NCBI RefSeq assembly: GCF_014395425.1
Contig: NZ_CP060711.1
Location: forward strand, 620,001 to 684,000
Origin: Thermomonas brevis
GTDB lineage: Bacteria; Pseudomonadota; Gammaproteobacteria; Xanthomonadales; Xanthomonadaceae
Direction: 5' to 3'
DNA: 64,000 nt
The notes below the pieces were generated by a model. It was not told the origin of the DNA, made no database searches, and worked only from the letters and a program-made list of their open reading frames with translations. Below are positions 5,056 to 41,813 of this stretch, in pieces. The stretch's first letter is position 1. Every line of letters begins with the position of its first letter. A program made the position numbers and the translations under genes.

Positions 5056-5056
5056 G

Positions 5057-5857
5057 GTGCGGGCACTCGCATCGCTGCTCGCGGCCCTGCTTTGCCTCGC
5101 TGGCTGCGGCACCAAAGCGCCCGCCGACGGAAAACACGAGCGGGTGCTGTTCGTCGGCAACAGCCTGACCTACGTCGGCAATCTGCCCGCGGTGTTTGCC
5201 GCGATGGCGAACGCGAACGGCCACGCCATCGAAAGCGACATGATCGTGCGCGGCGGCGCGTCGCTGACCGAGCCGCTGAAAGATGGTTCCATCGCGCGGG
5301 CGCTGGACGGGCGCCGCTACGCCGCGCTCGTGCTGCAGGAGCGCGGCGGCGATCTGCTCTGCGGGTTCGGCCCGGAGTCCTGCGCGGATTCCAGCGCCTC
5401 GCTCAAGGCCATCGCGCGCATGGCGAAGGAGAAAGGCGTCGCCAGCGTCGTGCTGCTGGGCACCTACCAGTCGATGCCGTCCGTCTCGAAGGTCATCGTC
5501 GAACGGGAAGGCGCGGCTGCGGACGAAGCGGGCATCGCCTACGTCGAGGTCTCGCAGACGCTGCAACGGCTGGGCGGCGCGCAGCCGGCACTGGTCTGGT
5601 TCGATGCCGATGGCATGCATCCGGGCAAGGACCTGACGCTGCTGGAGGCGATGCTGCTGCATCGGCAACTGTTCGGCGCGCTACCGGCCGCGCAAGCGCT
5701 TGTCGTCGATGGGCCGATCTATGGCGTCCAGAGCGGCCTGACCGGAACCCTGCGCGCGGCCGATGCGCCCGCGCCCAAGGCGGACACGCCACGGTCCATC
5801 GCCTACTCCGCCGATACCACCCGCAGCCTGCTCGACGCGTTGAGCGCTGATCGGTAA
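5057..5857 (+). CDS. SGNH-hydrolase-like lipoprotein
   Basis: 266 residues beginning with GTG one base after the preceding stop. The N-terminus is a lipoprotein signal with lipobox LAGC (C17). VLFVGNSLTYVGN carries the block I serine (S36) of SGNH/GDSL esterases, and FDADGMHPG near residue 188 gives the block V Asp-x-x-His (D185/H188). Esterase or deacetylase activity is therefore likely, but the substrate is unknown. Translational coupling with the M14 peptidase suggests both act on the same extracellular material. Confidence 0.82.
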   Translation: MRALASLLAALLCLAGCGTKAPADGKHERVLFVGNSLTYVGNLPAVFAAMANANGHAIESDMIVRGGASLTEPLKDGSIARALDGRRYAALVLQERGGDLLCGFGPESCADSSASLKAIARMAKEKGVASVVLLGTYQSMPSVSKVIVEREGAAADEAGIAYVEVSQTLQRLGGAQPALVWFDADGMHPGKDLTLLEAMLLHRQLFGALPAAQALVVDGPIYGVQSGLTGTLRAADAPAPKADTPRSIAYSADTTRSLLDALSADR

Positions 5858-5892
5858 GCGCTGCGACTGCCCGCCCGACAAACGCCCGTCAA

Positions 5893-5952
5893 CCTGAGCG
5901 CAGCGAAGGATCTGCTTGTAGCGATGAAAGTGGATCCTTCGCTGCGCTCAGG
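5893..5952. repeat. Perfect 20-bp inverted repeat, likely dispersed element
   Basis: Arms CCTGAGCGCAGCGAAGGATC (5893-5912) and its exact reverse complement (5933-5952) enclose 20 bases. It lies between the convergent SGNH and YdeI-like genes and could act as a bidirectional terminator hairpin, although no T-tract follows. Similar sequences are common in genomes of this family as far as I recall. Confidence 0.8.
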
Positions 5953-6006
5953 ACGACAGTGGATTGCCACGCATATGGGACGGAAGCCGTTCGAGGTTGC
6001 CCCGCC

Positions 6007-6603
6007 TCAACAGTTCTCGTACTTCCAGTTCCGCCGCTTGCCCTCGGCCATCCACTCCACCGCCTGCGCCAGCCGCTTCGCGCGCGTCTCCTCGCGCTTG
6101 GCTTCGACGATCCACTCGATGTACTCGCGCTTGCAGCTTGGCGGGAACGCATCGAACGTCGCCTGCGCCGCCTTGTTCTTCTTCAGCGCGGCGGCCAGAT
6201 CCTGCGGCGTTTCCGGCGGCGGCTTGGGCGCGGACTTGCGCGCCGGCGGCTTCACCCCGTCCTCGTTGAGCTTCATCGCCTTGCGGATATGCGCCAGCAG
6301 GGTCTTCTTCGGCGGAAGATCCTTCACCGAAGTCATCTTGCCGTAGCTGCCCATGCCGTCGCGCGGCTCGCCCTCGCCCACCACCAGCGCGTGCTTCCAG
6401 AAGCCGAACGAGGCGTGCTGCTTGAACGCCGCCATCCCGCACAGGATGCCGCCGGCGTGCACGAAGGTCGGCATGCCCCATTTGATCGTTTCCTCGACCT
6501 CCGGGCAGGCGTCGTGCACCCGTTCGCGCACCTGGGCCAGGATCGGCTGCGCGAACGGCGCGGCGCGTTCGATGTAGGCGTCGATGCGGGGGTCGCGGGC
6601 CAT
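6007..6603 (-). CDS. YdeI/OmpD-associated family protein (DUF1801 plus OmdA regions)
   Basis: 198 residues, no signal or membrane segment. The N-terminal half has the DUF1801 core with the diagnostic IKWGMP at about 40-45 and GGILCGMAAFKQHASFGFW after it. A lysine/proline-rich linker (about 115-135) leads to a C-terminal OmdA-like helical region with PSCKREYIEWIVEAKREETR. Members are linked with peptide or bacteriocin tolerance in some bacteria, but the biochemical role is not settled. It is monocistronic here, facing the SGNH gene. Confidence 0.85.
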   Translation of the reverse strand: MARDPRIDAYIERAAPFAQPILAQVRERVHDACPEVEETIKWGMPTFVHAGGILCGMAAFKQHASFGFWKHALVVGEGEPRDGMGSYGKMTSVKDLPPKKTLLAHIRKAMKLNEDGVKPPARKSAPKPPPETPQDLAAALKKNKAAQATFDAFPPSCKREYIEWIVEAKREETRAKRLAQAVEWMAEGKRRNWKYENC

Positions 6604-6666
6604 GTGGCTTGCCTGTCCGGAAGGTCCGGGCCATTCTGCGCCAACCCTTTGGCTTGAGGCGGTTCC

Positions 6667-7161
6667 ATGCGCCGGAAATCCGGTTCCCGATGGTTTCCCT
6701 GGCTGCTATTGGCCATCGTGCTGGCGCTGGGCTGGCAGTACTGGCAGCGATCCGCCGGCCCACCCGCGCCCGCCGTCGGCCCAGGCACGGAGGTGCCGCT
6801 GCCGATTCCCGCGCCAGCGTCTTCGCCCGCGCCCGCACCCACCACAACGCCTGCGGCTCCAGTCGAAACGCCAGCTTGGCCGGCCTTCCTGCCGCCGGAA
6901 GCGCGCGCCACCGTCGAACTGATCCAGCGCGGCGGCCCGTTCCCGCACCGGCAGGACGGCAGCGTGTTCGGCAACCGCGAAGGCCTGCTGCCGCGCCAGC
7001 CGCGCGGCTGGTACCGCGAATACACCGTGGACACGCCGGGGCTGTCGCACCGCGGCGCGCGCCGCATCGTCACCGGCGGCAACCCGCCGCGCGACTGGTA
7101 CTACAGCGACGACCACTACCGCAGCTTCCGCGCCTTCGAGGCGCCGGGGAATACGCCATGA
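6667..7161 (+). CDS. Membrane-anchored barnase-type ribonuclease
   Basis: 164 residues. One hydrophobic anchor (about 10-26) follows a basic N-terminus, then a proline/alanine/threonine-rich linker (about 31-75) leads to a C-terminal guanyl-preferring RNase domain. Visible family features are VFGNREGLLP, GWYREYTVDTPG with the general base E118, RGARRIVTGG with catalytic arginine R132 or R133, and YYSDDHYRSF with catalytic H150. The domain would lie outside the inner membrane. Its stop overlaps the ATG of a barstar-like gene, which would protect the cytosol before export. A housekeeping secreted nuclease or a competition toxin are both possible. Confidence 0.9.
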   Translation: MRRKSGSRWFPWLLLAIVLALGWQYWQRSAGPPAPAVGPGTEVPLPIPAPASSPAPAPTTTPAAPVETPAWPAFLPPEARATVELIQRGGPFPHRQDGSVFGNREGLLPRQPRGWYREYTVDTPGLSHRGARRIVTGGNPPRDWYYSDDHYRSFRAFEAPGNTP

Positions 7162-7601
7162 GCGACGCCGGTTCCGATCTGGTCCTGCACGACCCGCAGC
7201 AGGCCGGCGTGTTCTTCGTCGGCGGGGACGACATCGCCACGCTGGAAAACGCCGCGCGCGACGCCGGCTTGCTGGTGCGCCGCATCGACCTGCACGGCTG
7301 CGCCGGCAAGGACGCGCTGCTGGAGCGCCTGGCCGACGCCCTGTCCACGCCCGAGGGACAGGGCCGCAACTGGGACGCCCTGAGCGACCAGCTGCGCGAC
7401 CTGTCCTGGCTGCCGGCGCGCGGCTACGCCCTGCTGCTGCCGCACGCGGCCGAGCTGCGCGACGCCGAGGAAGCCAGCTTCGACACCCTGCTGGACATCC
7501 TCGACGAGGCCACGGTCGACTGGCAGGAACGCGACGTGCCGTTCTGGGCGTTCCTGGCGCTGCCCGACGACGAGTTTCCCGACGCGGCATCCCTCAATTA
7601 A
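7158..7601 (+). CDS. Barstar family ribonuclease inhibitor
   Basis: 147 residues, cytosolic. It begins at ATG 7158, overlapping the RNase stop by four bases (ATGA), which indicates translational coupling. The barstar core is recognisable: RRIDLHGCAGKDALLERLA, then GRNWDALSDQLRDLSWLP, matching the barstar helix that plugs the RNase active site, then a central hydrophobic strand GYALLLPH and a C-terminal WAFLAL strand. The role is to bind and silence the barnase-type enzyme encoded just upstream. An ORF in this frame extends upstream to 6609, but that part is only a shadow of the RNase gene. Confidence 0.92.
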   Translation: MSDAGSDLVLHDPQQAGVFFVGGDDIATLENAARDAGLLVRRIDLHGCAGKDALLERLADALSTPEGQGRNWDALSDQLRDLSWLPARGYALLLPHAAELRDAEEASFDTLLDILDEATVDWQERDVPFWAFLALPDDEFPDAASLN

Positions 7602-7632
7602 GCAACGCCCGCCCACGCGTTAGCATGGGCGG

Positions 7633-8175
7633 ATGAACGCACTCATTCTCCGCAACGCCACCCCGGACGACGTTCCCGCGCTGGTGGCCCTCGTCACCTC
7701 CGCCTACCGCGGCGACGCCAGCCGCGCCGGCTGGACCACCGAAGCCGACCTGCTGGACGGCAACCGCATCGATCCCGAGGTGCTGCTCGCCGACCTGCAG
7801 CGCCCGCACAGCCACGTGGTGCTGGCCGAACGCGGCGGCGAACTGCTGGCCTGCGCGCACGTCGCCGAGGACGGCGGCGCCGGCTATTTCGGCATGTTCG
7901 CCGTGCGCCCCGACCTGCAGGGCGGCGGCATCGGCAAGCACCTGCTGGCCGAATGCGAACGCATCGCCGGCGACGAATGGCGGCTGCCGGCGATGCGCAT
8001 GACCGTCATCGACGTGCGCGACGAGCTGATCGCCTTCTACGAGCGCCGCGGCTACCGCCGCACCGGCGACTTCAAGCCCTTCCCCTACGGCGACGCGCGC
8101 TTCGGCCAGCCGAAACGCGACGACCTGCGCTTCGAAGTGCTGGAGAAGCCCCTGCGCGCGGAGACCGCGGCATGA
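7633..8175 (+). CDS. GNAT family N-acetyltransferase
   Basis: 180 residues with a full GNAT fold. The acetyl-CoA loop is VRPDLQGGGIGKHLL (about 98-112) and the C-terminal signature is ELIAFYERRGYRRTG. The start is the ATG at 7633, 31 bases after the barstar stop. Its stop overlaps the Rieske gene start (ATGA at 8172), so the pair is coupled. The substrate is unknown; small-molecule amines or a protein N-terminus are both possible. Confidence 0.88.
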   Translation: MNALILRNATPDDVPALVALVTSAYRGDASRAGWTTEADLLDGNRIDPEVLLADLQRPHSHVVLAERGGELLACAHVAEDGGAGYFGMFAVRPDLQGGGIGKHLLAECERIAGDEWRLPAMRMTVIDVRDELIAFYERRGYRRTGDFKPFPYGDARFGQPKRDDLRFEVLEKPLRAETAA

Positions 8176-8501
8176 GCGAGGTCTGGACCTTCGTCTGCAC
8201 CACCGACGAGCTGCTGCCGGGCGAGATGAAAGTGGCGTTCGACGAGGTCACCGGCACGCCGATCGCGGTGTTCAACATGGACGGCGACCTGTACGCGCTG
8301 GAAGACCAGTGCAGCCACGAGGACTTCGAACTCTCGGCAGGCCATTTCGATCCGGCCAGCGGCCAGGTGGAATGCGTGCTGCACGGCGCCCGCTTCGACG
8401 TGCGCGACGGCCGCGCGCTGTGCGCGCCCGCCTACGAGCCGGTGGCGAAGTTCCCGGTGAAGGTGGAAGACGGCCAGGTGCTGGTGCGCGACGACCGCTG
8501 A
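8172..8501 (+). CDS. Rieske [2Fe-2S] non-heme ferredoxin
   Basis: 109 residues, cytosolic. The Rieske cluster motifs are complete: C47-S-H49 and C68-V-L-H71, separated by 18 residues, which gives two Cys and two His ligands. Length matches the small NirD/BphF-like electron carriers. It overlaps the upstream GNAT gene by four bases. Its redox partner is not visible next to it; the iron-uptake operon begins 270 bases downstream but has its own promoter region. Role as a soluble electron carrier is inferred from the family. Confidence 0.92.
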   Translation: MSEVWTFVCTTDELLPGEMKVAFDEVTGTPIAVFNMDGDLYALEDQCSHEDFELSAGHFDPASGQVECVLHGARFDVRDGRALCAPAYEPVAKFPVKVEDGQVLVRDDR

Positions 8502-8642
8502 CGCGTTCCGTCTTCGCCGGAACTGCCCGCGCTGCGGGCGCGACATCGACGCCTCGAACGATGGCGTTCGCCTGCCGCGAGCCCCGCTTCACGAGCCGGG
8601 CGAGGGCGAAAGCCCGCACGACGTGAAGTTTCCGTTGTAAAC

Positions 8643-8662
8643 GGGAATCGTTCTCACTATTA
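8643..8662 (+). promoter_or_regulatory. Putative Fur box upstream of the siderophore receptor operon
   Basis: GGGAATCGTTCTCACTATTA resembles the Fur consensus GATAATGATAATCATTATC, with the ATCGTTCTCA core of proteobacterial Fur sites. It lies about 115 bases before the receptor start codon. Iron-dependent repression of the whole operon is inferred. Confidence 0.65.
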
Positions 8663-8775
8663 TTCCCGCACCCAGCCTGCAGGCGGCGACGCCGTCCGCG
8701 CCAGGCCCCACCCCTTCCTTCCACTCGGGAAAGACCCGGCTACAGACCGGTCAACCCACCTTGGCCCGCATCCCA

Positions 8776-11112
8776 ATGACCCACATCAAATCCCGCAAGC
8801 ACCCGGCGCGCAGCGCGCACGCCCATCTCGCCACCACCGCCCTGAGCGCCAGCCTGGCGCTGGCCCTGCCGATGATGGCCCACGCCGCCGACGACAACGC
8901 CGACGCGGACAAGACCAGGAAGCCGGACGCGACCACGCTGGACAAGGTGGAAGTGCGCGGCCTGCGCAGCTTCGTGGTCTCGCCGAAGTTCACCCAGACC
9001 CTGCAGGACACGCCGCAGACCATCGAGGTGATCGGCAAGGAACTGCTGCAGGAACAGGGCGCCACCACCCTGACCGAGGCGCTGCGCAACAGCCCGGGCG
9101 TCGGCACCTTCTACGCCGGCGAGAACGGCAACACCAGCACCGGCGACACCCTGTACATGCGCGGCTTCGACACCTCGTCGAGCATCTTCGTGGACGGCGC
9201 GCGCGACCTCGGCAGCGTCTCGCGCGATCTGTTCAACATGGAACAGGTGGAAGTGGTGAAGGGCCCGGCCAGCACCGACACCGGCCGTTCCTCGCCCACC
9301 GGCGCGATCAACATGGTGACCAAGCAGGCGCAGCTGCGCGAAGCGGTCTCCGGCAGCGTCTCCGCCGGCGTGGACGGCCAGAAGCGCGCCACCGCCGACT
9401 GGAACACGAAGCTCAGCGATTCCTCCGCGCTGCGCGTGAACGCGATGTGGCAGGACAGCGACGTGCCCGGCCGCGACCACGTCAACAACAGCCGCTGGGG
9501 CATCGCGCCGTCGCTGGGCTTCGGCCTGGACGGCAACACCCGGCTCTGGCTGGACCTGCTGTACGTGAAGCAGGACAACGTGCCGGACGGCTTCGTCCCG
9601 ACGATCGGCCTGCCGTACTGGACGCCGCAGCCGGGCCTGGAAAACCTGGCCGGCCACCCCGTCGATCCGAGCAATTTCTACGGCACCCGCGACGACCACG
9701 AGAACGTGACCGCGCAGATGGCCACGCTGCGCTTCGAACACGATTTCAGCGACACCCTGAAGATCAGCAACACCCTGCGCTGGGGCAAGACCGACCAGGA
9801 CTACCTGCTGACCGCGTTCATGAGCACCGGCGGCACCAATGCCAACCCGCTGGCCGGCAACATCAAGTGGACCGACAAGAACGACCTGTCCACCTACACG
9901 CTGTCGCGCAGCAACCCCACCTTCCGCGACAACCAGAACAAGATCCTGACCAACCAGTTCAACCTGCGCGCGGACTTCGGCACCGGCGCGGTAGACCACT
10001 TCCTCAGCGCCGGCGTCGAGCTGACCCGCGAGGAGCAGACGGCCCCCGGCATCACCAGCACCGGCAGCCGTCCGGCCGCCAACCTGTACGACCCGGACTG
10101 GAACGATGCCGGCACCTTCGCGTGGAGCCACAACGGCACCCATGCCCACGGCCAGACCGACACCAGCGCGCTGTACGTCTTCGACACCATGAAGTTCGGT
10201 GAGCACTTCCTGCTCACCGCCGGCCTGCGCGCCGATCACTACACGACCAAGTACTTCGCCAACGCCATCTGCAATACCGCAGGCACCGGCGCTCCCGGCC
10301 GCGGCATCGTGTACTGCGGCACCGCGGCGGTCGGCTCCATCATCACCTCCAGCGACCTGAAGGATTCCGACACCCTGCTGAGCTGGAAGATCGGCGCAGT
10401 CTACAAGCCGGTGGAAGCACTCAGCCTGTACGCCAACGCCGCGCTGGCGCAGCAGCCGCCGGGTGGCGCCAACTTCCAGCTGGCCGTCGGTTCCTCCAGC
10501 GCCAACGGCGTCGATGCCGATCCGCAGGTCGCCCGCACGCTCGAAGTCGGCACCAAGTGGGCGGCCAACGAATCGCTGACCCTGAACCTGGCGCTGTTCC
10601 AGACCACGGTGAGCAACGAGATCAACACCCAGGAAAACCCGGCGACGCAGACCGGCAGGAAGCAGGTCAAGGGCGTGGAAGCCAGCGCGGTCGGCAACAT
10701 CACCGACAACTGGAACGTCTCGCTGGGCTACCTGCACCAGAGCGCGGAAGTGGACAAGGGTTCGCTGGTGGCCGCCGACGGCACGCCGAACCTGACCTAC
10801 ACGCCGTCCGACTCCTTCACCAGCTGGACGACCTACAAGTTCCCGTTCGGCCTGACCGTGGGCGGCGGCGTGCGCTACATGGGCGGCCTGCACCGCGGCA
10901 CCGACGGCGCCGCCGGCACGCCGAAGCTCACCAAGCCCTGGACCGTGTACGACGCCGTGATCTCGTACGCCGTCAACGACAACCTCACCCTGCGCCTCAA
11001 CGGCTACAACCTGTTCGACAAGGCCTACGTCGCGTCGATCAACAAGAGCGGCTACCGTTATACCCCCGGTACCCCGCGCACCTTCCTGCTGAGCGCGGAC
11101 TTCCGCTTCTGA
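8776..11112 (+). CDS. TonB-dependent catecholate-type siderophore receptor
   Basis: 778 residues. Start ATG 8776 gives a signal peptide ending in LPMMAHA; a TTG at 8761 is the only other choice. A plug domain follows ([50 protein letters not shown]), then a 22-strand barrel ending in the outer-membrane phenylalanine (FLLSADFRF). The sequence style matches Fiu/PiuA-like ferric-catecholate receptors. The next gene encodes a PiuC/YbiX-like dioxygenase, the usual partner of Fiu/PiuA. It imports an iron-loaded siderophore using TonB energy. A Fur-like site lies upstream. Confidence 0.93.
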
Positions 11113-11165
11113 TGCAAGACCGCGCGGCGGAGCCAGCCTCCGCCGCGCTTCCCTCCGGAGCCGCC

Positions 11166-11843
11166 ATGCTGCTGCACATCCCGAACGTCCTGACCCGCGA
11201 CGAACTTGCGCAAATGCGCGCCAGGCTGGACGCCGCGGACTGGACCGACGGACGCGAAACTGTCGGCACGCTGGGCGCGCAGGTCAAGCGCAACCAGCAG
11301 CTGCCGGATGCTTCGCCGGTGCGCGCGGAACTTGCGCGCATCGTGCTGGCGGCGCTGGGCCGCAACCCGCTCTACTTCGCCGCGGCGCTGCCGCTGAAGA
11401 CGCTGACCCCGCGCTTCAACCGTTACGCCGGCGGCGGCGAATACGGCTTCCACGTCGATGGTGCGGTGATGCGCGCAGGCGGCGAACAGCACCTGCGCTC
11501 CGACGTGTCCTGCACGCTGTTCCTGGCCGAGCCGGACGAATACGACGGCGGCGAGCTGATCGTCAGCGACACCTACGGCGAACACGAGGTGAAGCTGCCG
11601 GCCGGCGACGCCATCGTCTATCCGTCCAGCAGCCTGCACCGGGTGGCGCCGGTGACGCGCGGCGCGCGCATCGCCTCGTTCTTCTGGGTGCAGAGCATGG
11701 TGCGCGACGACGCCAGCCGCCGCCTGCTGTTCGAAATGGACGCATCGATCGAACGCCTGCGCGCCAGCGGCGCGGACGCCGACGCCGTGCTCCAGCTGAC
11801 CGGCATCTACCACAACCTGCTGCGGCGCTGGGCGGAGACCTGA
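11166..11843 (+). CDS. PiuC/YbiX-like Fe(II)/2-oxoglutarate PKHD-type hydroxylase
   Basis: 225 residues, cytosolic. The iron site is FHVDG (H96, D98) with distal H158 in [10 protein letters not shown] and the 2-oxoglutarate arginine R168 in [24 protein letters not shown] is the standard N-terminus of this family, so the ATG at 11166 is preferred over longer forms. It starts 53 bases after the receptor. The family is nearly always encoded beside catecholate siderophore receptors and is thought to modify the siderophore or a related molecule, though the true substrate is not established. Confidence 0.93.
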
Positions 11844-11847
11844 CGGC

Positions 11848-12489
11848 GTGACCGCGGCCAATCCGCTCCCCGATCTCTCCGCGCGGCAGCGCCGCGGCTA
11901 CTGGCTGCGCACCCTGCACCAGTGGCACTGGATCAGCGCCGCGGTGTGCCTGGTCGGCATGCTGCTGTTCGCGGTCACCGGCATCACCCTCAACCATGCG
12001 GCGAAGATCGAGGCCACGCCCGTCGTCGTGCATGTCAACGACGTCCTGCCGGCGGCGTTGTTGAAAAGGTTGCCCGCGCGCACCGAAGGGAATGCCGAAC
12101 TGCCCGCCCCGGTCGTCGCCTGGCTGCGCGAGAAGCACGGCATCGTGGCCGATGCACGCGAGGCGGAATGGTCGGAGGACGAAATCTACCTGTCGATGCC
12201 CGGTCCCGGCCACGACGCCTGGCTCAGCATCCAGAAGGAGGGCGGCGCGCTGGAATACGAGCGCACCGACCGCGGCACGCTGGCCTTCCTCAACGACCTG
12301 CACAAGGGTCGCAACGCCGGCGCGGCCTGGAGCTGGTTCATCGACCTGTTCGCGGTGGCCTGCATCGTGTTCACCGCCACCGGCCTGTTCCTGCTCTGGC
12401 TGCACGCGCGCCAGCGCCGCGCCACCTGGCCGCTGGTGGCACTGGGTCTGCTGATCCCGATGCTGCTGGCGCTGCTGTTCATCCACTGA
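11848..12489 (+). CDS. PepSY-associated transmembrane protein
   Basis: 213 residues, starting with GTG four bases after the dioxygenase stop. Three hydrophobic segments are visible (about 29-49, 163-185, 194-212), with a periplasmic PepSY-like region between the first two. Histidines flank the membrane segments (H24, H27 and H50 around the first; H152 and H186 around the second) in positions that could bind heme. Related PepSY membrane proteins act in ferric-siderophore reduction. In this operon it is the best candidate to pass electrons across the inner membrane; heme binding is an inference. Confidence 0.85.
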   Translation: MTAANPLPDLSARQRRGYWLRTLHQWHWISAAVCLVGMLLFAVTGITLNHAAKIEATPVVVHVNDVLPAALLKRLPARTEGNAELPAPVVAWLREKHGIVADAREAEWSEDEIYLSMPGPGHDAWLSIQKEGGALEYERTDRGTLAFLNDLHKGRNAGAAWSWFIDLFAVACIVFTATGLFLLWLHARQRRATWPLVALGLLIPMLLALLFIH

Positions 12490-12521
12490 AATCCCCCTCG
12501 ATCCGACAAGGCGAATCCACC

Positions 12522-13037
12522 ATGCGCGTCACCGTCTCCCTCGTCCTCGGCAGCCTGCTCGTCGCCCCGTCGGCGCAAGCCGGCGAACTGTCGCTCAACG
12601 TCGAACTCCCGCGCATCAACGCGGCCGAATACCACCGCCCGTACGTGGCGGTCTGGGTCGAGGGCGCGGACGGCAAGGCCGCCGCCGACCTCGCGGTCTG
12701 GTACCAGGACAAGGACACCAAGGAAGGCCACGGCACCAAGTGGCTGCCGGACCTGCGCCAGTGGTGGCGCAAGAGCGGCCGCACCCTGAAGGTGCCGGTG
12801 GACGGCGTCACCGGCCCCACCCGCCCGGCCGGCAAGCACGCGCTGAACTTCGACGAAAAACACCCCGCGCTGGCGAAGCTGCCGCCCGGCCAGTACACCC
12901 TGGTGGTGGAAGCCGCGCGCGAAGTCGGCGGACGCGAACTGCTGAAGATCCCCTTCGAATGGAAGGGCAAGCCGTCCACCGGCAGCGCGCAGGGCAAGAC
13001 CGAGCTGGGCAAGGTCTCGCTGTCCGCCAAGCCCTGA
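12522..13037 (+). CDS. DUF2271 periplasmic protein, possible flavinylated redox carrier
   Basis: 171 residues with a signal peptide (about 1-20). The DUF2271 core has an immunoglobulin-like look, with PYVAVWVEGADGK and LAVWYQDKD. Residues 94-100 read DGVTGPT followed by RPAGKH; this fits the D-x-x-[ST]-G-[AP]-[ST] pattern at which ApbE attaches FMN, predicting T100 as the attachment residue. The ApbE gene lies two genes downstream. The role as a periplasmic flavin electron carrier between the PepSY protein and ferric siderophore is inferred. Function of the family is otherwise poorly known. Confidence 0.85.
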   Translation: MRVTVSLVLGSLLVAPSAQAGELSLNVELPRINAAEYHRPYVAVWVEGADGKAAADLAVWYQDKDTKEGHGTKWLPDLRQWWRKSGRTLKVPVDGVTGPTRPAGKHALNFDEKHPALAKLPPGQYTLVVEAAREVGGRELLKIPFEWKGKPSTGSAQGKTELGKVSLSAKP

Positions 13038-13047
13038 CGCTCTGAAG

Positions 13048-13145
13048 CCCTCCCCTGCAAGGGGAGGGTTTGGGTGGGGCTGGTGTTCCCGGCAATACCG
13101 CAACACAACCCCATCCCCCTCCAACCTCCCCCTTGAAGGGGGAGG
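13048..13145. repeat. Paired CCTCCCC/GGGGAGG hairpins inside the iron operon
   Basis: Two palindromes, 13048-13068 and 13125-13145, face each other with G-rich and C-rich spacer segments that also pair partly. They separate the DUF2271 and DUF4198 genes. Similar palindromes occur at 14234-14256, 63131-63162 and 63211-63241. They may stabilise or attenuate the operon transcript. Confidence 0.75.
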
Positions 13146-13185
13146 CTCAAGCAAAAGCCCGCAGACACTTCGCAAAGGAATCCCC

Positions 13186-14064
13186 ATGAAGCGCACCACC
13201 CTCGCCCTCGCCGCCGCACTCTGCCTGCTGCCGCTGTCCGCCGTCGCGCACAAGCAATGGCTGGTGCCCTCGTCCACCGTGGTCGCCGGCCAGGACGCAT
13301 GGGTCACGGTCGATGCGGCCGTGTCGAACCAGCTGTACTACCCGGACCACGTGGCGATGCGGTTGGACAACATCGTCGTCACCGCGCCGGACGGCAGCGT
13401 GTCGAAGCCGCAGAACCCGGCCACCGGCAAGTACCGCAGCGTGTTCGACGTGCAGCTCGAACAGGAGGGCACCTACCGCATCGCCAACCTCAGCGGCGGC
13501 GTGTCCGCGCGCTGGGACACCCCGGAAAGCCTGGCCGCGGCCAAGGCGGCGAAGGACGGCAAGGCCCCGGCGGCCGGCGGCATGGGCGGTCCCGGCGGCG
13601 GACGCGGCGGCTTCCTGCGCAACGCCACGCCGGAAGACCTCGCCACCAAGATCCCGAAGAACGCGCTGAACGTGCAGGTGACCGAAGGCATCGGCCGCGT
13701 GGAAACCTTCGTCACCCATGGCGCGCCGAGCAGCGTAGCCGCTGCCGGCAAGGGGCTGGAACTGGCGCCGGTCACCCATCCGAACGACCTGTTCGCCGGC
13801 GAGGAAGCCACCTTCAAGCTGCTGGTGGACGGCCAGCCGGCCGCTGGCGTGGAGATCGAGATCATCCGCGGCGGAACCCGCTACCGTAACGCCCAGGACG
13901 AGATCAAGGTAACCACCGCCGCCGACGGCAGCTTCAAGGTGACCTGGCCGGACGCCGGCATGTACTGGCTGGAAGCTTCCACCACCGACGCCAAGACCAG
14001 CGTGCCGCAGGCCAAGCAGCGCCGCCTGAGCTACGTGGCGACGCTGGAAGTGCTGCCGCAGTAA
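13186..14064 (+). CDS. DUF4198 periplasmic protein
   Basis: 292 residues with a signal peptide ending in SAVAHKQW; a histidine right after cleavage is typical of DUF4198 and could bind metal. The fold looks like beta sandwiches: an N-terminal domain, a glycine-rich flexible stretch (about 125-145, GGMGGPGGGRGG), and a C-terminal Ig-like half with PNDLFAGEEATFKLLVDGQP. Proteins of this family are often encoded with nickel, cobalt or iron uptake systems. It sits in the siderophore operon, so metal or siderophore handling in the periplasm is likely, but no activity is known. Confidence 0.85.
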   Translation: MKRTTLALAAALCLLPLSAVAHKQWLVPSSTVVAGQDAWVTVDAAVSNQLYYPDHVAMRLDNIVVTAPDGSVSKPQNPATGKYRSVFDVQLEQEGTYRIANLSGGVSARWDTPESLAAAKAAKDGKAPAAGGMGGPGGGRGGFLRNATPEDLATKIPKNALNVQVTEGIGRVETFVTHGAPSSVAAAGKGLELAPVTHPNDLFAGEEATFKLLVDGQPAAGVEIEIIRGGTRYRNAQDEIKVTTAADGSFKVTWPDAGMYWLEASTTDAKTSVPQAKQRRLSYVATLEVLPQ

Positions 14065-14233
14065 TCCACGCGCTTCTTTCTTCGGGAGACGAATCGGCGG
14101 GATTGCCGGTTTGCACGGCATCCGCCGCCCGAAGGACGAGGCACAGGGATGTGCCGGACGCATGTGCCTGCAGGACGGTTGAGTAGTTCGGTACAAGCGG
14201 GAAGCCCCGTACTCGCCCGAACCCTCGCCCCAA

Positions 14234-14256
14234 CCCCTCTCCCGATGGGAGAGGGG
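14234..14256. repeat. CCCCTCTCCC hairpin upstream of apbE
   Basis: A perfect 10-bp stem (14234-14243 and 14247-14256) with a 3-base loop, ending 17 bases before the apbE start. The gap 14065-14273 also contains the short palindrome GCACAGGGATGTGC (14141-14154). The hairpin is close enough to affect ribosome access to apbE. Confidence 0.7.
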
Positions 14257-14273
14257 CTTCAATCCATGATCCG

Positions 14274-15245
14274 ATGACTGCATCCTCTCCCGCCGCCCTC
14301 GCGTTGCATACCCTCGGCGGCGACACCATGGGCACCACCTGGAGCGTGCGGCTGGCCGCCGCACGCGAAGCCGACCTGCGCGCGCTGCACGCCGGCATCG
14401 AAGCGCAGCTGGCGCTGGTGGTGCGGCAGATGAGTACCTGGGACAACGATTCCGACATCAGCCGCTACAACCGCGCCGACGCCGGCCAGTGGCTGTCCGT
14501 CCCGCCCGAGTTCGCGCGCGTACTGGTCTGTGCGCTGGAGATCGCCGACGCCAGCGATGGCGCGTTCGATCCCACGGTCGGCGCGCTGGTCGGCCTGTGG
14601 GGCTTCGGCGCGCACGCCCGCGATACCGTCCCCGACGCCGAAGCGCTGGCCGCCGCCTGCGCGTGCTCCGGCTGGCGACGCATCGACTTCGACGCGGAGA
14701 ATCGCCGCATCCTGCAACCCGGCGGCCTGCAGCTCGACCTGTCCGCCATCGCGAAAGGCTATGCGGCGGACCAGGTGGCGGCATGCCTGCGCGATGCCGG
14801 CATCGCCGACGCGCTGGTGGAAGTCGGCGGCGAACTGGTCGGTCACGGCTGCAAGCCCGGCGGCGAACCGTGGCGGGTACTCGTCGAAGCCGGTCCAGAG
14901 GAAGACGACCACCGGCTGGATGCGCGCGTGCTCGAACTCGACGAACTGGCGGTCGCCACTTCCGGCGACCGCTGGCACCACTACATGCGTGACGGTCGCC
15001 GCTACACTCACACCATCGACCCGCGCAGCGGCGAACCTGTAGAGCATGCGCCCGCCGCGGTCAGCGTCGTCGCGGCCGACGCCATGCACGCCGACGCCTG
15101 GGCCACAGCGCTGGGCGTGCTCGGCGTCGATGCCGGCCACGCCTTGGCGCTGCGGCTCGGGCTGGCCGCGCGCTTCCTCTGGCGCGATGACGACGGCATG
15201 CACGAACGCATGACCGACGCCTTCCGCGCGCGTCTGGCCGCATGA
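14274..15245 (+). CDS. FAD:protein FMN transferase (ApbE family)
   Basis: 323 residues. Family features in order: GDTMGTTWSVRLA, the MSTWDNDSDISRYN segment, FDPTVGALVGLWGFG, LDLSAIAKGYAADQVA, VGGELVGHG and the C-terminal HYMRDGRRYTHTIDPRSGEP with the metal-binding acidic region ATALGVLGVDA. The enzyme moves FMN from FAD to a Ser/Thr of a partner protein. No signal peptide or lipobox is visible from the ATG at 14274, which is unusual since many ApbE proteins work in the periplasm. It overlaps the reductase gene by four bases (ATGA). Confidence 0.93.
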   Translation: MTASSPAALALHTLGGDTMGTTWSVRLAAAREADLRALHAGIEAQLALVVRQMSTWDNDSDISRYNRADAGQWLSVPPEFARVLVCALEIADASDGAFDPTVGALVGLWGFGAHARDTVPDAEALAAACACSGWRRIDFDAENRRILQPGGLQLDLSAIAKGYAADQVAACLRDAGIADALVEVGGELVGHGCKPGGEPWRVLVEAGPEEDDHRLDARVLELDELAVATSGDRWHHYMRDGRRYTHTIDPRSGEPVEHAPAAVSVVAADAMHADAWATALGVLGVDAGHALALRLGLAARFLWRDDDGMHERMTDAFRARLAA

Positions 15246-16873
15246 GCGACATGAAGCTCTGGCGCCCTCGTCACGGCCTGTCGTTCGCCGGCAACGCGCT
15301 GGTGCTGTTGGCACTGGCCGCGTTGGCCGCCTGGCTGCTGCATCTGCAGGCATCGCCGTGGCCCACGCCGACGCCGATGGCAAAGCCGCGCTGGCTGGCC
15401 GTCGCCGCGTCGGCGCTGTGGCTGCTGCTATGCGGCCGGACGCTCTGGCGCGGACGAACGCAGGCTCAAACAACAGACAGCACCGACGCCTCCGGCTGGC
15501 TGGTGGTCCACGCCACCCAGACCGGTCTGGCGCTGGAACTCGCCGAGCGCACTGCGGATACGCTGCGCCAGACCGGCGCCGCCGCCGAACTGCGCGGCAT
15601 CGCCGAACTCGATGCCGCAAGCCTGCAAGGCCGGCGCTGCCTGTTCGTCGCCAGCACCACCGGCGAAGGCGACCCGCCTGACGCCGCGCTGGAATTCGCC
15701 GGCACCGCGATGGCCGACGCCATCGACCTGCACGGCACGCACCATGCGGTGCTGGCGCTGGGCGATCGCGGCTACGCGCAGTTCTGTTCCTTCGGCCATC
15801 GGCTGGACACTTGGCTGCGTAACAACGGTTCGCAGCCGCTGTTCGACCTGGTCGAAGTGGACAACGCCGATCCCGGCGCGCTGCGCCATTGGCAGCATCA
15901 GCTGGGCGTGCTCGCCGGCCGCACCGATCTGCCTGACTGGAGCCGCCCGGAATACCGGCCGTGGACGCTGGCCCAACGCCGGTTGCTCAATCCCGGCAGC
16001 GCGGGTGGCCCGGCCTTCCATCTGGAATTGCTCCCGCCAGAAAGCGGAATCCCGCAGTGGCAGGCGGGCGACATCGCGGAAATCGGCCCGCGCAATTCGG
16101 CACAGTCGATCGCGGCTTTCCTCGACGCCAGTGGTCTGTCCGGCAGCACGCCCGTCGAGTTCCAGAACCAGCGCACGCCGCTGGCGGAAGCGCTGGCGCG
16201 CGCGCATCTGCCGGATGCCAGTGCCGTGCGCGGCCTCGATGCGAAGACGCTGGCAAGCCGGTTGCAACCGCTGCCGCATCGCGAATATTCCATCGCATCC
16301 ATCCCAGCCGACGGCCGGCTGGAACTGCTGGTGCGGCTGATGCGACGCGAAGACGGCCAACCCGGCCTCGGCAGCGGCTGGCTATGTTCGCACGCCGGCA
16401 TCGGCGGCAGCATCGACCTGCGCATCCGCGCCAATCCCAACTTCCACGCGCCTGATCCGTCGCGACCGCTGATCCTGATCGGCAACGGCACCGGTTTCGC
16501 GGGCCTGCGCGCGCACCTGAAAGCGCGCATCGCCATCGGCGCGCGCCGCAACTGGCTGCTGTTCGGCGAGCGCAATGCCGCGCACGACCGCTTCCACGGC
16601 GACGAACTCGATGCGTGGCAGCGCGAAGGCAAGCTGGCCCGCCTCGACCGGGTGTTCTCGCGCGACGGCGACGCGCAGCGCTACGTGCAGGATGCCCTGC
16701 GCTCGCAGGCCGCGGCGCTGCGCACCTGGCTGGACGAAGACGCCGCGATCTACGTCTGCGGCAGCCTGCAAGGCATGGCGCCGGGCGTGGACGGCGTGTT
16801 GGCGGAACTGCTGGGCGAAGCAGGCGTCGCCGCATTGCTGCGGAGCGGGTGCTATCGCCGCGACGTGTACTGA
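15242..16873 (+). CDS. Membrane-anchored flavodoxin/ferredoxin-NADP reductase (CysJ-like)
   Basis: 543 residues. Two N-terminal membrane helices (about 12-32 and 46-66) are followed by a flavodoxin domain (about 84-230; HATQTGLALE, ASTTGEGDPPD, LGDRGYAQFCSFG) and an FNR domain (about 250-543; REYSIAS for FAD, GNGTGFAGLRAHLK for NADPH, YVCGSLQGMAPGVDGVL, C-terminal YRRDVY as in CysJ). It should take electrons from NADPH through FAD and FMN at the inner membrane. Position at the end of the siderophore operon, coupled to apbE, suggests it feeds the PepSY protein rather than sulfite reductase, for which no CysI is near. Confidence 0.9.
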   Translation: MSDMKLWRPRHGLSFAGNALVLLALAALAAWLLHLQASPWPTPTPMAKPRWLAVAASALWLLLCGRTLWRGRTQAQTTDSTDASGWLVVHATQTGLALELAERTADTLRQTGAAAELRGIAELDAASLQGRRCLFVASTTGEGDPPDAALEFAGTAMADAIDLHGTHHAVLALGDRGYAQFCSFGHRLDTWLRNNGSQPLFDLVEVDNADPGALRHWQHQLGVLAGRTDLPDWSRPEYRPWTLAQRRLLNPGSAGGPAFHLELLPPESGIPQWQAGDIAEIGPRNSAQSIAAFLDASGLSGSTPVEFQNQRTPLAEALARAHLPDASAVRGLDAKTLASRLQPLPHREYSIASIPADGRLELLVRLMRREDGQPGLGSGWLCSHAGIGGSIDLRIRANPNFHAPDPSRPLILIGNGTGFAGLRAHLKARIAIGARRNWLLFGERNAAHDRFHGDELDAWQREGKLARLDRVFSRDGDAQRYVQDALRSQAAALRTWLDEDAAIYVCGSLQGMAPGVDGVLAELLGEAGVAALLRSGCYRRDVY

Positions 16874-17043
16874 TCCGCGCATTGAAACGCCTCGGGCAGG
16901 ACGCTTAAGTACACGAAGCGCAGCCGGATGACGCGCTCACCCGCGCACAGGATCTCCTAACCGCAACGCAAGACCAGTCGATACGGATAGCCCCGGCATC
17001 GCGCAAGCAATCGCCCGAATGGTCCCATCACGGGCGGCGGCGC

Positions 17044-17074
17044 AAAAAAAGGTGCGGCACATCCTTGTGCCGCA
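17044..17074 (-). terminator. Intrinsic terminator for the HutD-like gene
   Basis: On the minus strand a 9-bp stem (TGCGGCACA/TGTGCCGCA, 17053-17074) with a 4-base loop is followed by seven Ts (17044-17050). It lies about 80 bases past the stop of the HutD-like gene. The rest of 16874-17152 holds only a small hairpin (17134-17150) and no gene that I can see. Confidence 0.75.
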
Positions 17075-17152
17075 GCGGAGCCGGTTCCTTCGACACCGCC
17101 TTGACTGAAAACCCCAGGGGGTGAGGGTTGAACAAAGCCGTCCGGGCTTTGG

Positions 17153-17758
17153 TCAAATCTCTCCCGCCTTGGTGATCCGGATCAGCAACGCTTCACCCGC
17201 GCCGCTGAGGGCGAAACGGGCACGCCCAGCCTCGTCCTGAAGGATGGCGGTATCGCCACGCTCGATGCCGCCAAGCCCGCAGTCGCCGGAAAAATGCGCC
17301 TGACCGGCCAGCATGTGCACCACCCAGGTCTCGCCGGGATCGACGAACAGCACCATCGCGCCCACCAGCGGCCGGCGCCAGAGCCGCGCCTCCACTTCGC
17401 CGCGCTTCCACATCACGTTGAAGTCCCGGCTGGGGCCGTCGATCAGTTCGCCCACCAGCGGACGCTCGCCGGAGAAACGCAGGGCATCGTGCGGAGGCAG
17501 TAATTCGTGCGTCGCCCCGTCGTCGAAGCGCAGGCGCATGCCGTTGCCGCCCAGCAGCACCAGCTCCCGTTCGACGCCGGGGAAGGCGGAGAACGGCGCA
17601 TCGGTTTCCACCTCGGCGATCGAAAGCCGCCAGTGCCAGTCGTCGGCGTCGGGGACGCGGAGGATCTCCGACGTCCACCCCGCCCCGTTCTTCCAGCGCA
17701 TGCGGCGGTAATCTTCCGCCCGCAACAGGAAGGACGACCGCGGCGATGCACCTGTCAT
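17153..17758 (-). CDS. HutD/Ves family cupin-like protein
   Basis: 201 residues, cytosolic. The family opening is present: RRMRWKNGAGWTSEILR followed by WHWRLSIAEVETDAPFSAFPG, then ELVLLGGNGMRL and a second cupin-like half with RDFNVMW. HutD proteins sit in histidine-utilisation loci in pseudomonads, whereas this copy is isolated with no hut genes nearby, so the role here is open. The ATG at 17756-17758 is chosen since an upstream extension would run into the ComEA-like gene region with no family resemblance. Confidence 0.87.
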   Translation of the reverse strand: MTGASPRSSFLLRAEDYRRMRWKNGAGWTSEILRVPDADDWHWRLSIAEVETDAPFSAFPGVERELVLLGGNGMRLRFDDGATHELLPPHDALRFSGERPLVGELIDGPSRDFNVMWKRGEVEARLWRRPLVGAMVLFVDPGETWVVHMLAGQAHFSGDCGLGGIERGDTAILQDEAGRARFALSGAGEALLIRITKAGEI

Positions 17759-17808
17759 CGCCGCAGTGTAGCCGCCGCAGCCCGGCTCGCCGTTGGCCCG
17801 TTCGGCAT

Positions 17809-18156
17809 TCACCGGCGCACGACCTGCTGCGGCGCGGGCCTGGCAGCCGGCTTGGCGGCGTTGGCGGCGGACTTCGGACGCGCGGCGGCGCCGAACACGA
17901 TCCGTTCGCGGTTCTTTTCCACCGTCTTCAGGCCGATGCCCTTGACCAGCGCCAGTTGCTCGGCGCTGCGGAACGCGCCATTGGCCTTGCGGTAATCGAC
18001 GATCGCCTGCGCCTTGGCCGGGCCGATGTTGACCAGCACGCGGTCGATGGTCGCGGCGTCGGCGGTGTTGATGTTGACGGTCTCGCCGGCAACGGCCGCA
18101 CCGGCCAGCGCGAAGAACAGGATCAACGAGGAAAACAGGGTGCTCAGCGATTTCAT
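17809..18156 (-). CDS. ComEA-like helix-hairpin-helix DNA-binding protein
   Basis: 115 residues with a signal peptide (about 1-23) and the ComEA core ETVNINTADAATIDRVL, IGPAKAQAIVDYRKANG, and VKGIGLKTVEKNRERIVFG, the two helix-hairpin-helix turns that bind DNA. A lysine/alanine/proline tail follows. Start ATG 18154-18156 has a good AAGGAG site just upstream; a longer in-frame start at 18225 would spoil the signal peptide. In naturally competent bacteria ComEA pulls DNA into the periplasm, which fits the type IV pilus genes 2 kb away. Confidence 0.9.
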   Translation of the reverse strand: MKSLSTLFSSLILFFALAGAAVAGETVNINTADAATIDRVLVNIGPAKAQAIVDYRKANGAFRSAEQLALVKGIGLKTVEKNRERIVFGAAARPKSAANAAKPAARPAPQQVVRR

Positions 18157-18388
18157 GGCATGGCTCCTTGGAGGGTATCTGTGGCCGAACCGCGGATTGC
18201 GATCCGGTGCATGCAGATTGCCCACCGGGATGGACGCAGCCTATCGGGTGCCGCCTCCGGGGCCCATCGGATTTATCCCCCACCGTTGGGTAGGAAAAAT
18301 CTGATCCCTGTAGTCACGCGGCATTCTCGGGGTTCGCGCGACCCGGCGCTACAATGGAAACCGAGAGCCACGACACCACAGGGACGCC

Positions 18389-19897
18389 ATGCACGCCGCC
18401 AATTTCGACGCCAACCAGATCCGCGAGTTCGTCGGTGCAAAATGGGACAAGGAAATCGTCCCCCAGCTGATCGACTACATCCGCATCCCCAACAAGTCGC
18501 CGATGTTCGACGCCGACTGGGTGAAGAACGGCCACATGGATCGCGCGGTCGCGCTGATGGAGTCCTGGGCGAAGGCGCAGGCGATTCCCGGCATGCAGCT
18601 CGAGGTGGTGCGCCTGGAAGGCCGCACGCCGCTGATCTTCATCGACATTCCCGCCGCCAACGGCGGCCGCGACGACGACTGCGTGCTGCTCTACGGCCAC
18701 CTCGACAAGCAGCCGGAAATGACCGGATGGGACGAAGGCAAGGGCCCTTGGGAACCCATGCTGGAAGGTGACCGCCTGTACGGCCGCGGCGGCGCCGACG
18801 ATGGCTACGCGATCTTCGGCTCGCTGACCGCGATCATGGCGCTGCAGGCGCAGGGCGCAGCGCACGCGCGCTGCGTGGTGCTGATCGAGGCGTGCGAGGA
18901 ATCCGGCAGCTACGATCTGCCCGCCTACGTGGACCATCTGGCGGAGCGCATCGGCAAGCCCTCGCTGGTGGTCTGCCTTGACTCCGGCTGCGGCAACTAC
19001 GAGCAGCTGTGGTGCACCACGTCGCTGCGCGGCCTGGCCGGCGGCAACCTCACCGTGAAGGTGCTGTCGGAGGGCGTGCATTCGGGCGACGCCTCGGGCA
19101 TCGTGCCGTCCAGCTTCCGCGTCATCCGCGACCTGCTTTCCCGCGTCGAGGACGAAGACACCGGCCGCGTGCTGATCGACGGCATGCACGTCGACATCCC
19201 CGCCGAGCGCAAGGCGCAAGCCGCCAAGGTGGCCGAGGTGCTTGGCGAGGAAGTGTTCGACAAGTTCCCGTTCCTGCCCGGCATGTCGCCGATGAACGCG
19301 GACCTGACCGAACTGGTGCTCAACCGCACTTGGCGCCCGGCGCTGTCCATCACCGGCGTCGACGGCATTCCGCCCTTGGCCTCGGCAGGCAACGTGCTGC
19401 GCCCGTTCACCTCGCTCAAGCTCAGCCTGCGCTTGCCGCCAACACTGGATGGCAAGCGCGGCGGCGAGCTGCTGCAGGAAACGCTGCTCAAGGACCCGCC
19501 CTACGGCGCCGATGTCAGCCTGAACCTGGAAAAGGCCAGCACCGGCTGGAATGCGCCGACATTGGCGCCGTGGCTGGAAGCGGCCATCGACCAATCCAGC
19601 CAGGAGTTCTTCGGCAAGCCGGCCATGTACATGGGCGAAGGCGGCACCATTCCGTTCATGGGCATGCTTGGCGAGAAGTTTCCCGGCGCGCAGTTCATGA
19701 TCACCGGCGTGCTGGGGCCGCATTCCAATGCGCATGGTCCCAATGAGTTTCTGCATATTCCGATGGGCAAGGCGGTCACCGCCTGCGTCGCACGCGTGGT
19801 CGCCAACCACCATGCCGCCAGCCTGCGCGGGGAAACCACTGGCGTGCCGGCGGCGGCCGGGAATTCGTATGCGGATACCCCTGGTGGGTGCTGCTGA
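18389..19897 (+). CDS. M20 family metallopeptidase (dipeptidase)
   Basis: 502 residues, no signal peptide. Zinc-site motifs of M20: VLLYGHLDKQPE (His and the Asp two residues on), YGRGGADDGYA (bridging Asp), EACEESGS (catalytic and zinc Glu), LDSGCGNYE, and a late GPHSNAHGPNE histidine. A lid domain with EGVHSGDASGIVPSS is inserted. Length and motifs match the M20 dipeptidases related to carnosinase/CNDP. The C-terminus ends in an odd GGCC after a flexible tail. It should split dipeptides in the cytosol, and peptide import through POT/OPT transporters would feed it. Confidence 0.92.
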   Translation: MHAANFDANQIREFVGAKWDKEIVPQLIDYIRIPNKSPMFDADWVKNGHMDRAVALMESWAKAQAIPGMQLEVVRLEGRTPLIFIDIPAANGGRDDDCVLLYGHLDKQPEMTGWDEGKGPWEPMLEGDRLYGRGGADDGYAIFGSLTAIMALQAQGAAHARCVVLIEACEESGSYDLPAYVDHLAERIGKPSLVVCLDSGCGNYEQLWCTTSLRGLAGGNLTVKVLSEGVHSGDASGIVPSSFRVIRDLLSRVEDEDTGRVLIDGMHVDIPAERKAQAAKVAEVLGEEVFDKFPFLPGMSPMNADLTELVLNRTWRPALSITGVDGIPPLASAGNVLRPFTSLKLSLRLPPTLDGKRGGELLQETLLKDPPYGADVSLNLEKASTGWNAPTLAPWLEAAIDQSSQEFFGKPAMYMGEGGTIPFMGMLGEKFPGAQFMITGVLGPHSNAHGPNEFLHIPMGKAVTACVARVVANHHAASLRGETTGVPAAAGNSYADTPGGCC

Positions 19898-19924
19898 GCT
19901 TACCTAGAGGCATCAGGAGAGACG

Positions 19925-19952
19925 AAAAAACCCGCCTACCGGCGGGTTTTCG
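19925..19952. terminator. Bidirectional intrinsic terminator between the M20 gene and pilE
   Basis: Stem AACCCGCC/GGCGGGTT with a TACC loop, six As on the left and four Ts on the right. It ends both the M20 gene (plus) and the minor pilin operon (minus, where the T-run is longer). Confidence 0.9.
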
Positions 19953-19971
19953 TTTGAAGCACCAAGCAGTT

Positions 19972-20367
19972 TTACCAGCAACCGGCAGTGGCAGGCGTCT
20001 TGGTGCCGGCCTGATTGACTGTCAGGGTGCCGCAGGAATCACCTGACTGCTTTCCTTGCGGCGCAGCGGAAATGATGTACTCCTTGTCTTTGAGATCGGC
20101 TGCTGGCGCCGTCACGTCGTAGAACTCCAACGCCTTCGGCTCGCAGATCGTGGTATTGGCCACGAAACCGGTATACCTCATGTTGGTGGTGTAGTACCGT
20201 TCGGCCTGCTGCGCCAACGCCAGCGCACAGGCTGCGCCGGCGGTTCGGCGGGTCTTGCGCACATGCTCGTTGTACGACGGCAACGCGATCGACGCCAAGA
20301 TGCCGATGATCGCCACTACCACCATCAGTTCGATGAGGGTGAAGCCTGAGGCGCCTGAATTACGCAT
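19972..20367 (-). CDS. pilE: Type IV minor pilin PilE
   Basis: 131 residues. After a 7-residue leader, prepilin peptidase should cut at [19 protein letters not shown], leaving E5 in the mature N-terminal helix. The C-terminal globular part has cysteines for a disulfide. Start ATG 20365-20367 has AAAGGA upstream; the reading frame extends to 20400 but that lacks a ribosome site. It is the last gene of the fimT-pilVWXY1E operon, 29 bases after pilY1, as in Pseudomonas and Xanthomonas. It should join the minor pilin complex that primes pilus assembly. Confidence 0.92.
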
Positions 20368-41361: not shown

Positions 41362-41813
41362 GTTCGAAAATCTCCAATCAGGAAGAGAAAGGCGCGAAGG
41401 CGGTGTGCGCGGACCGAGCCATCGGTCGCGTCGGCCGTGGCGCAGCGCTATCTCAGGCATTTCACAAATAAGAATCATTTACATTTCAAGCATGTTCGCT
41501 CCCCCCTTCTCCGTCGCAAATGACATGCGTCAACCCGCGCACTGGTCGTCCACGGAAACTTCCGTTCGACAGTGACTGCACGGCGCTGCCCGGCAGCGGG
41601 AACGGGGCGAGCTTGCCTTCTTGGCAAGACGGGTCGGGTGCGACGAGGCGGAAACGGGGGGATCCGAGCCGTCGGCACCGGGCAAGCGCACTTCCACGCC
41701 ATTCCTCCCAGGAACCGCACAGACCGGGACGCGGTGGCCACCACACGGATGCCGCGGGGCAGCCGGCATCGGCACGGATTTACCGTCGCCGCGCCTTGCG
41801 GCACGATGTCGGC
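41362..41813. other. Intergenic region with a Fur box and little else
   Basis: 452 bases between divergent genes. I see the Fur-like site at 41466-41484, a small hairpin CTTGCC/GGCAAG at 41612-41628, and no convincing gene. Open frames here lack codon bias and homology. Confidence 0.6.
41466..41484 (-). promoter_or_regulatory. Putative Fur box upstream of FecA-like receptor
   Basis: AAATAAGAATCATTTACAT matches the Fur consensus core (AGAATCATT) well and is AT-rich in a GC-rich region. A TTGAAA element lies just upstream on the minus strand and may be the -35 box. Confidence 0.75.

Follow-up and report, generated by a model that had tools for sequence, protein, structure and literature searches.

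A putative NADPH-to-periplasm iron-reduction operon in Thermomonas brevis with a relaxed DUF2271 flavinylation motif and a co-varying ApbE residue

Introduction

Could a single run of genes behind a Fur-like site in Thermomonas brevis provide a complete route for electrons from NADPH to iron in the periplasm, and is its DUF2271 protein the carrier of a covalent FMN on that route? The window analyzed here, a stretch of 64,000 nucleotides (bases 620001-684000 of a host genome that consists of a single contig of 3.44 Mb), contains such a run, which the initial annotation had read as a flavin-based siderophore-reduction chain. ApbE is regarded as recognizing an almost invariant motif, the canonical form in its substrates being Dxx[ST]GA[ST], and FoxB-type PepSY proteins are siderophore reductases. 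A flavinylation survey published in eLife in 2021 reportedly treated ApbE-linked clusters of DUF2271, DUF4198 and PepSY genes. In the Pseudomonas aeruginosa piuA-piuC-piuB system, PA4513 is a PepSY-flavodoxin-FNR fusion. For the locus described here a reduction chain is the best reading; its unusual part is the combination of a relaxed flavinylation motif, a co-varying ApbE residue and a missing ApbE signal peptide.

Results

Gene content and layout of the operon

The run comprises seven genes, all on the + strand, between positions 8761 and 16873 of the window. The seven-gene set proposed in the initial annotation is present in full, with each gene where it had been placed and with the named domains matched. 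The features are as follows.

8637-8655 (+) and 8643-8661 (-), within 8637-8661: Fur-like site formed by two overlapping matches to a matrix from 43 related-locus sites
8776-11112 (open frame from 8761), +: TonB-dependent catecholate siderophore receptor, Fiu type (NF007349)
11166-11843, +: PiuC/YbiX-type Fe(II)/2OG dioxygenase (NF003975, PF18331, PF13640)
11848-12489, +: PepSY-TM membrane protein (PF16357, PepSY_TM_like_2, 1e-81; PF03929 above cut-off)
12522-13037, +: DUF2271 protein, proposed covalent FMN carrier (PF10029, 3.6e-51; Sec-type signal peptide by eye)
12801-12821, +: variant of the flavinylation site, D94-G-V-T-G-P-T100, in DUF2271 (alignment with relatives)
13040-13160, no strand: non-coding repeat-like element between DUF2271 and DUF4198 (read from the sequence)
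13186-14064, +: DUF4198 periplasmic protein with signal peptide (PF10670, 3.4e-55)
14274-15245, +: ApbE FAD:protein FMN transferase (ApbE domain, 2e-81; nearest solved relative 5mgy, 2.9e-69)
14970-14975, +: ApbE residues R233-W234, Tyr-Arg in canonical enzymes (column 233 co-varies with the DUF2271 motif)
15242-16873, +: membrane-anchored flavodoxin/FNR, CysJ type (PF00258 and PF00175, flavodoxin and NAD-binding domains)

Curated cut-offs sharpened several of these identities. The receptor passes the NCBIfam equivalog cut-off for Fiu (NF007349, 978 bits vs 686), and the dioxygenase gene passes that for PKHD-type hydroxylases (NF003975, 349 bits vs 180) while falling short of the NF003973 and NF003972 cut-offs. 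The ApbE domain lies far beyond its cut-off (PF02424, 274 bits vs 25.6), with the protein as a whole below the PRK10461 equivalog cut-off (217 bits vs 498). The flavodoxin/FNR, whose gene overlaps apbE by 4 bases and which carries two N-terminal hydrophobic helices by eye, misses the equivalog cut-off for CysJ sulfite reductase (TIGR01931, 208 bits vs 668). DUF4198 has conserved His22 and His198.

Two non-coding gaps, at 13038-13185 (~150 bases) and 14065-14273 (~210 bases), break the run; despite both, a single transcript for the seven genes is predicted as likely. Repeat-like non-coding inserts rich in CCTCCCC/GGGGAGG lie inside the operon, namely the 13040-13160 element and a second at about 14200-14262, and an Rfam search of 8000-17500 returned no match. 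The operon is flanked upstream by a gene for a Rieske [2Fe-2S] protein (8178-8501) and downstream by a HutD-like gene (17153-18283).

A Fur-like site precedes the run

The initial annotation had also placed a Fur box ahead of these genes. With a matrix derived from 43 sites that precede related operons, the two overlapping matches at 8637-8661 ranked second and fifth best on both strands of the window, bearing out that claim; by the E. coli consensus alone the site is weak (~12 of 19 positions by hand, outside the top list). In several loci in which the core genes described below stand apart, a separate Fur-like site precedes the PepSY gene.

The best Fur-like site of the window by the same matrix, at 41464-41488, precedes another TonB-dependent receptor gene (39244-41361, - strand). 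AT-rich Fur-like matches also cluster at 21700-23500, including the palindrome GATAACGATAATAGTTATC at 23453; this cluster sits inside a PilY1-like frame (20397-23660) and is perhaps merely AT-rich DNA.

Five genes form a conserved core

DUF2271 was found in 76 of 149 genomes of the family. Its nearest named relatives, in a one-sequence search covering seven loci, came from Thermomonas (82 and 76%), Luteimonas mephitis (72%) and Stenotrophomonas, with an unclassified pseudomonadotal MAG (82%) among the closest, which places the window close to Thermomonas within the Lysobacteraceae; DUF2271 was also matched in the control genome, Caulobacter vibrioides. We fetched 80 loci from the family, 70 of which are of the window's locus type. 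Within these 70, PepSY was present in 70, DUF4198 in 69, ApbE in 68 and the FNR in 70, and the five-gene core of PepSY, DUF2271, DUF4198, ApbE and flavodoxin/FNR shared a strand and a fixed order in 68, an arrangement that exceeds chance. The two leading genes proved less constant: the retrieved stretch contained all seven genes in 54 of 70 loci, and PiuC, present in 56 of 70, lay at most 400 bases from the PepSY gene in 34 of those 56. Outside the family, where 51 of 67 matches were fetched, PepSY occurred in 44 loci, DUF4198 in 47, ApbE in 29, the FNR in 28, all five in 17 and PiuC in 16. Thus, joint conservation, which the initial annotation had expected of all seven genes, holds for the five-gene core, whereas the receptor and PiuC form a looser module whose place is not fixed.

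DUF2271 is the candidate FMN carrier

Does the genome offer ApbE a client other than DUF2271? It encodes one ApbE and one DUF2271, and the two further client families searched genome-wide, FMN_bind and NqrB/RnfD, gave no match, which makes DUF2271 the best candidate for FMN acceptor. Across the 149 family genomes, ApbE was present in 68 of 69 genomes with DUF2271 but no FMN_bind, in 19 of 20 with FMN_bind only, in all seven with both and in 7 of the 53 with neither. These occurrence patterns point to DUF2271 as the candidate carrier.

The difficulty lies in the site itself. No [ST]GA[ST] occurs in any + frame of 5000-20000, and an early thought that DUF2271 is not a client was dropped once alignment with relatives revealed a proline variant: the window's protein reads DGVTGPT where others have DGVSGAT, an alanine-to-proline change at motif position 6. 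Counting the window together with the family loci of its type, 50 sequences carry Pro6, 18 the canonical motif, two DGLSAAT and one DSIAGAT. Of the 50 genomes of the Pro type, that of the window among them, 40 have exactly one ApbE and no FMN_bind; G092, also of the Pro type, lacks ApbE. On a 115-row tree built without the motif columns (a quick tree, with long branches according to its own warnings), the Ala/Pro states of position 6 called for at least seven changes, all of which starred branches make necessary; the Pro rows of the family, 49 in number, grouped in one clade, with the other Pro rows scattered.

The proline variant could mean that these DUF2271 proteins are no longer flavinylated, the threonine being kept for structure and the sole ApbE modifying another protein. 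The substitution does break the published consensus, which keeps the Ala, and relatives illustrate how the site may decay. A second DUF2271 type in the family is fused with ApbE in one long open frame (519-678 aa; L102, L104, L107, L110, L111), and these fusions have lost the Asp and the Ser/Thr from the site yet keep Pro-Thr-Arg, so the threonine can be structural. L101 (genome G100) has Ala at motif position 4 (DSIAGAT) and, in an otherwise conserved locus, has lost ApbE, possibly a natural loss. Against such a loss in the Pro type stand the genome lacking an FMN_bind or NqrB/RnfD match, the co-variation of ApbE described below and the retention of Asp and a T/S hydroxyl in 50 of 50 Pro-type members. 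D94, G95, G98, P99 and T100 are invariant in all 50, position 97 being T or S; this invariance is weak by itself, as 50 of 149 mature DUF2271 columns are likewise invariant in the Pro clade. Weighing these points, we regard loss of flavinylation as unlikely and retain DUF2271 as the putative carrier. The initial proposal to that effect is thus sustained by the sole ApbE, the co-occurrence and the co-variation of motif and transferase, but not by a canonical ApbE motif, DGVTGPT standing in its place. Structure prediction contributed little: AlphaFold on seven DUF2271 sequences was poor (mean pLDDT 57.7), the motif falling within a stretch (87-104) under 50, and a search of solved structures returned no DUF2271 relative at E <= 1.

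An ApbE residue co-varies with the motif

A scan of ApbE alignment columns singled out column 233, directly after the invariant Ser-Gly of TSGD, as separating the motif types. Within the family, Tyr occupies this column in 19 of 20 Ala rows versus 1 of 49 Pro rows; outside it, in 14 of 19 Ala rows versus 0 of 8 Pro rows (Fisher p = 5.8e-4, the best among columns, uncorrected). The solved ApbEs 5mgy and 6nxi have Tyr-Arg at the 233-234 position, where the window's enzyme has Arg-Trp.

Loci fetched later, 30 from another family and six from a third, followed the same pattern, with motif and residue concordant in 34 of the 35 that have both features (the stretch fetched for L230 contains no motif); as the 30 were the top matches to the window's ApbE out of 125 genomes with a match, they are no random sample. 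For the six genomes of the third family the expectation had been written down beforehand and held in five, the sixth combining a non-Tyr enzyme with a canonical motif. Over all 130 loci, non-Tyr and Tyr enzymes accompany Pro6 in 60 and 1 loci, Ser5-Ala6 in 5 and 0, and canonical motifs in 4 and 60. Tyr thereby accompanies 60 of 64 canonical motifs and 1 of 66 relaxed motifs, the relaxed class having been defined after the split at column 233 had been seen inside and outside the family. The exceptions are L084, L085, L178, L179 and L245.

In a Pagel-type test of correlated evolution, column 233 gave a likelihood ratio of 42.8 and ranked first of 243 columns, ahead of 27.6 for the runner-up and a median of 6.1; a p-value of 1e-8 is too small for this ratio, given that the median lies above the chi-square expectation. 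Pro6 alone gave 26.8 with column 233 in a test that covered four columns. In the fitted rates, the relaxed motif was gained only where Tyr was already gone. An independent-pairs test found four pairs on starred branches, ~3.3 of them pointing the same way and none the opposite, a result that cannot reach significance with so few usable pairs. The ApbE-DUF2271 fusions L212 and L213 were excluded from the trees used with the all-loci tests. Taken together, ApbE seems to have changed in step with the relaxed DUF2271 motif, as judged from these alignments. If DGVTGPT sites are modified, a large group of flavoproteins escapes canonical-motif searches, and a single ApbE residue would offer a handle on target choice; the joint change of motif and enzyme makes ApbE target specificity directly testable.

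ApbE lacks a recognizable signal peptide

Signal peptides were scored with a crude in-house rule, which missed at least one sequence (L098) that looks lipoprotein-like by eye. By this rule, signal peptides were present in 63 of 70 DUF2271 and 67 of 69 DUF4198 proteins of the family, and in 0 of 56 PiuC proteins, the negative control. For ApbE, they were found in none of the 48 scored Pro-type loci of the family, in 12 of its 18 Ala-type loci, and in 5 of 29 loci outside it. The window's ApbE has no recognizable signal peptide from any possible start, and inspection by eye found none on the ApbE of the five named-organism operons and the S. nitritireducens contig that carry this gene.

These counts bear on the link between column 233 and the motif, which might be hitch-hiking on ancestry or on some other change, such as ApbE location, rather than physical recognition. 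The family's Pro type is a single 49-row clade and is also the group without ApbE signal peptides, and the formal pair test is underpowered. The split recurs outside the family, however, where 24 of 29 ApbEs lack a signal peptide whatever the motif; the later-fetched loci agree with it, and column 233 lies next to an invariant Ser-Gly pair in the active-site region. We consider hitch-hiking improbable, and co-adaptation of the enzyme to the relaxed motif the preferred account.

An ApbE without a signal peptide beside a DUF2271 with one constitutes a second tension. Because of it, the periplasmic picture drawn in the initial annotation does not settle the compartment of attachment: either FMN is added in the cytosol before export, or ApbE leaves the cell by some other route, or the simple periplasmic picture is wrong here. 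A specific version of the first option, to which we give rather limited credence, is that a cytosolic ApbE modifies the DUF2271 precursor before Sec export and that changes at residue 233 opened the enzyme to the relaxed motif, in which Gly5 or Ala6 is replaced, mostly by Pro6. If true, the locus and its relatives would provide a natural transferase-substrate series in which the evolution of flavinylation specificity can be followed, together with an example of a Sec-type protein that receives its cofactor prior to export. Should ApbE indeed act without being exported, this would revise where periplasmic flavoproteins obtain their flavin.

A proposed chain from NADPH to periplasmic iron

The PepSY protein scores above the cut-off for the PepSY_TM domain (PF03929, 40.2 bits vs 28.8) and matches PF16357 with 274 bits. 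In an alignment of 115 rows, His27 and His152 are invariant, and His50, His213, His186 and His24 are kept in 95, 93, 84 and 79%, respectively; His 27, 50, 152, 186 and 213 are candidate haem ligands on this conservation. A search of solved structures returned no PepSY relative at E <= 1, and the predicted model (79.7) gave no convincing fold match; neither supports the haem reading.

In the chain that we propose, the receptor would bring ferric catecholate into the periplasm, and NADPH would reduce the cytoplasmic flavodoxin/FNR, which may hold the FAD and FMN of a CysJ-like protein. Electrons would then cross the membrane via the PepSY protein, probably over two haems on the conserved histidines, and reach the FMN linked covalently to Thr100 of DUF2271, which would reduce the bound ferric iron. 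ApbE would attach this FMN at a site that here takes the relaxed form Dxx[ST]GPT, presumably read by an enzyme whose Tyr next to TSGD was replaced. The computed basis of this proposal is the gene content and order, the Fur-like site, the lack of other known client families and the co-variation of column 233 with the motif; from the sequences we infer the FMN attachment, the haems, the electron path, the substrate and siderophore reduction. Fur-controlled iron reduction from NADPH to the periplasm, with FMN placed on DUF2271 by an ApbE co-adapted to the relaxed motif, is in our judgment moderately probable. Such a chain, ending in a covalent periplasmic flavin, would give ferric-siderophore reduction in these bacteria a defined and testable set of parts.

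Instead of a catecholate siderophore, the substrate may be haem, free ferric iron or a different metal, with the receptor an interchangeable neighbor. This would fit the many loci that lack the receptor and PiuC or have them at a distance (PiuC in the family and outside it, as counted above), but within the family the core is repeatedly accompanied by a Fiu-type receptor, PiuC and Fur-like sites, and we find another substrate somewhat doubtful compared with a ferric catecholate.

Relation to known systems

The window's ApbE belongs to the same enzyme family as those acting on NqrC/RnfG/NosR (FMN_bind) and NqrB/RnfD, with 5mgy, 6nxi and 11 other solved chains matching it, and its presumed target site shares the form Dxx[ST]..T; the differences are the client, DUF2271, the proline at position 6 and the Arg-Trp pair. 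The core is shared with the ApbE-linked DUF2271/DUF4198/PepSY clusters of proteobacteria, from which the window appears to differ in its relaxed motif and in the tie between that motif and an ApbE residue. With the P. aeruginosa piuA-piuC-piuB and FoxB type, it has in common the receptor, PiuC, a PepSY membrane protein and a CysJ-like NADPH module; unlike in the P. aeruginosa system, PepSY and FNR are separate proteins, and DUF2271, DUF4198 and ApbE are added.

Other contexts of ApbE and DUF2271 in the family

Seven family genomes (G006, G012, G014, G058, G080, G085, G120) carry ApbE without a DUF2271 or FMN_bind match. A third DUF2271 type of the family adjoins an FNR-ApbE pair and has a motif with a Ser acceptor (L103, L105, L106, L108, L109); it reads DG[VI][ST]GAS in four of these loci and QGVTGAS in L109.
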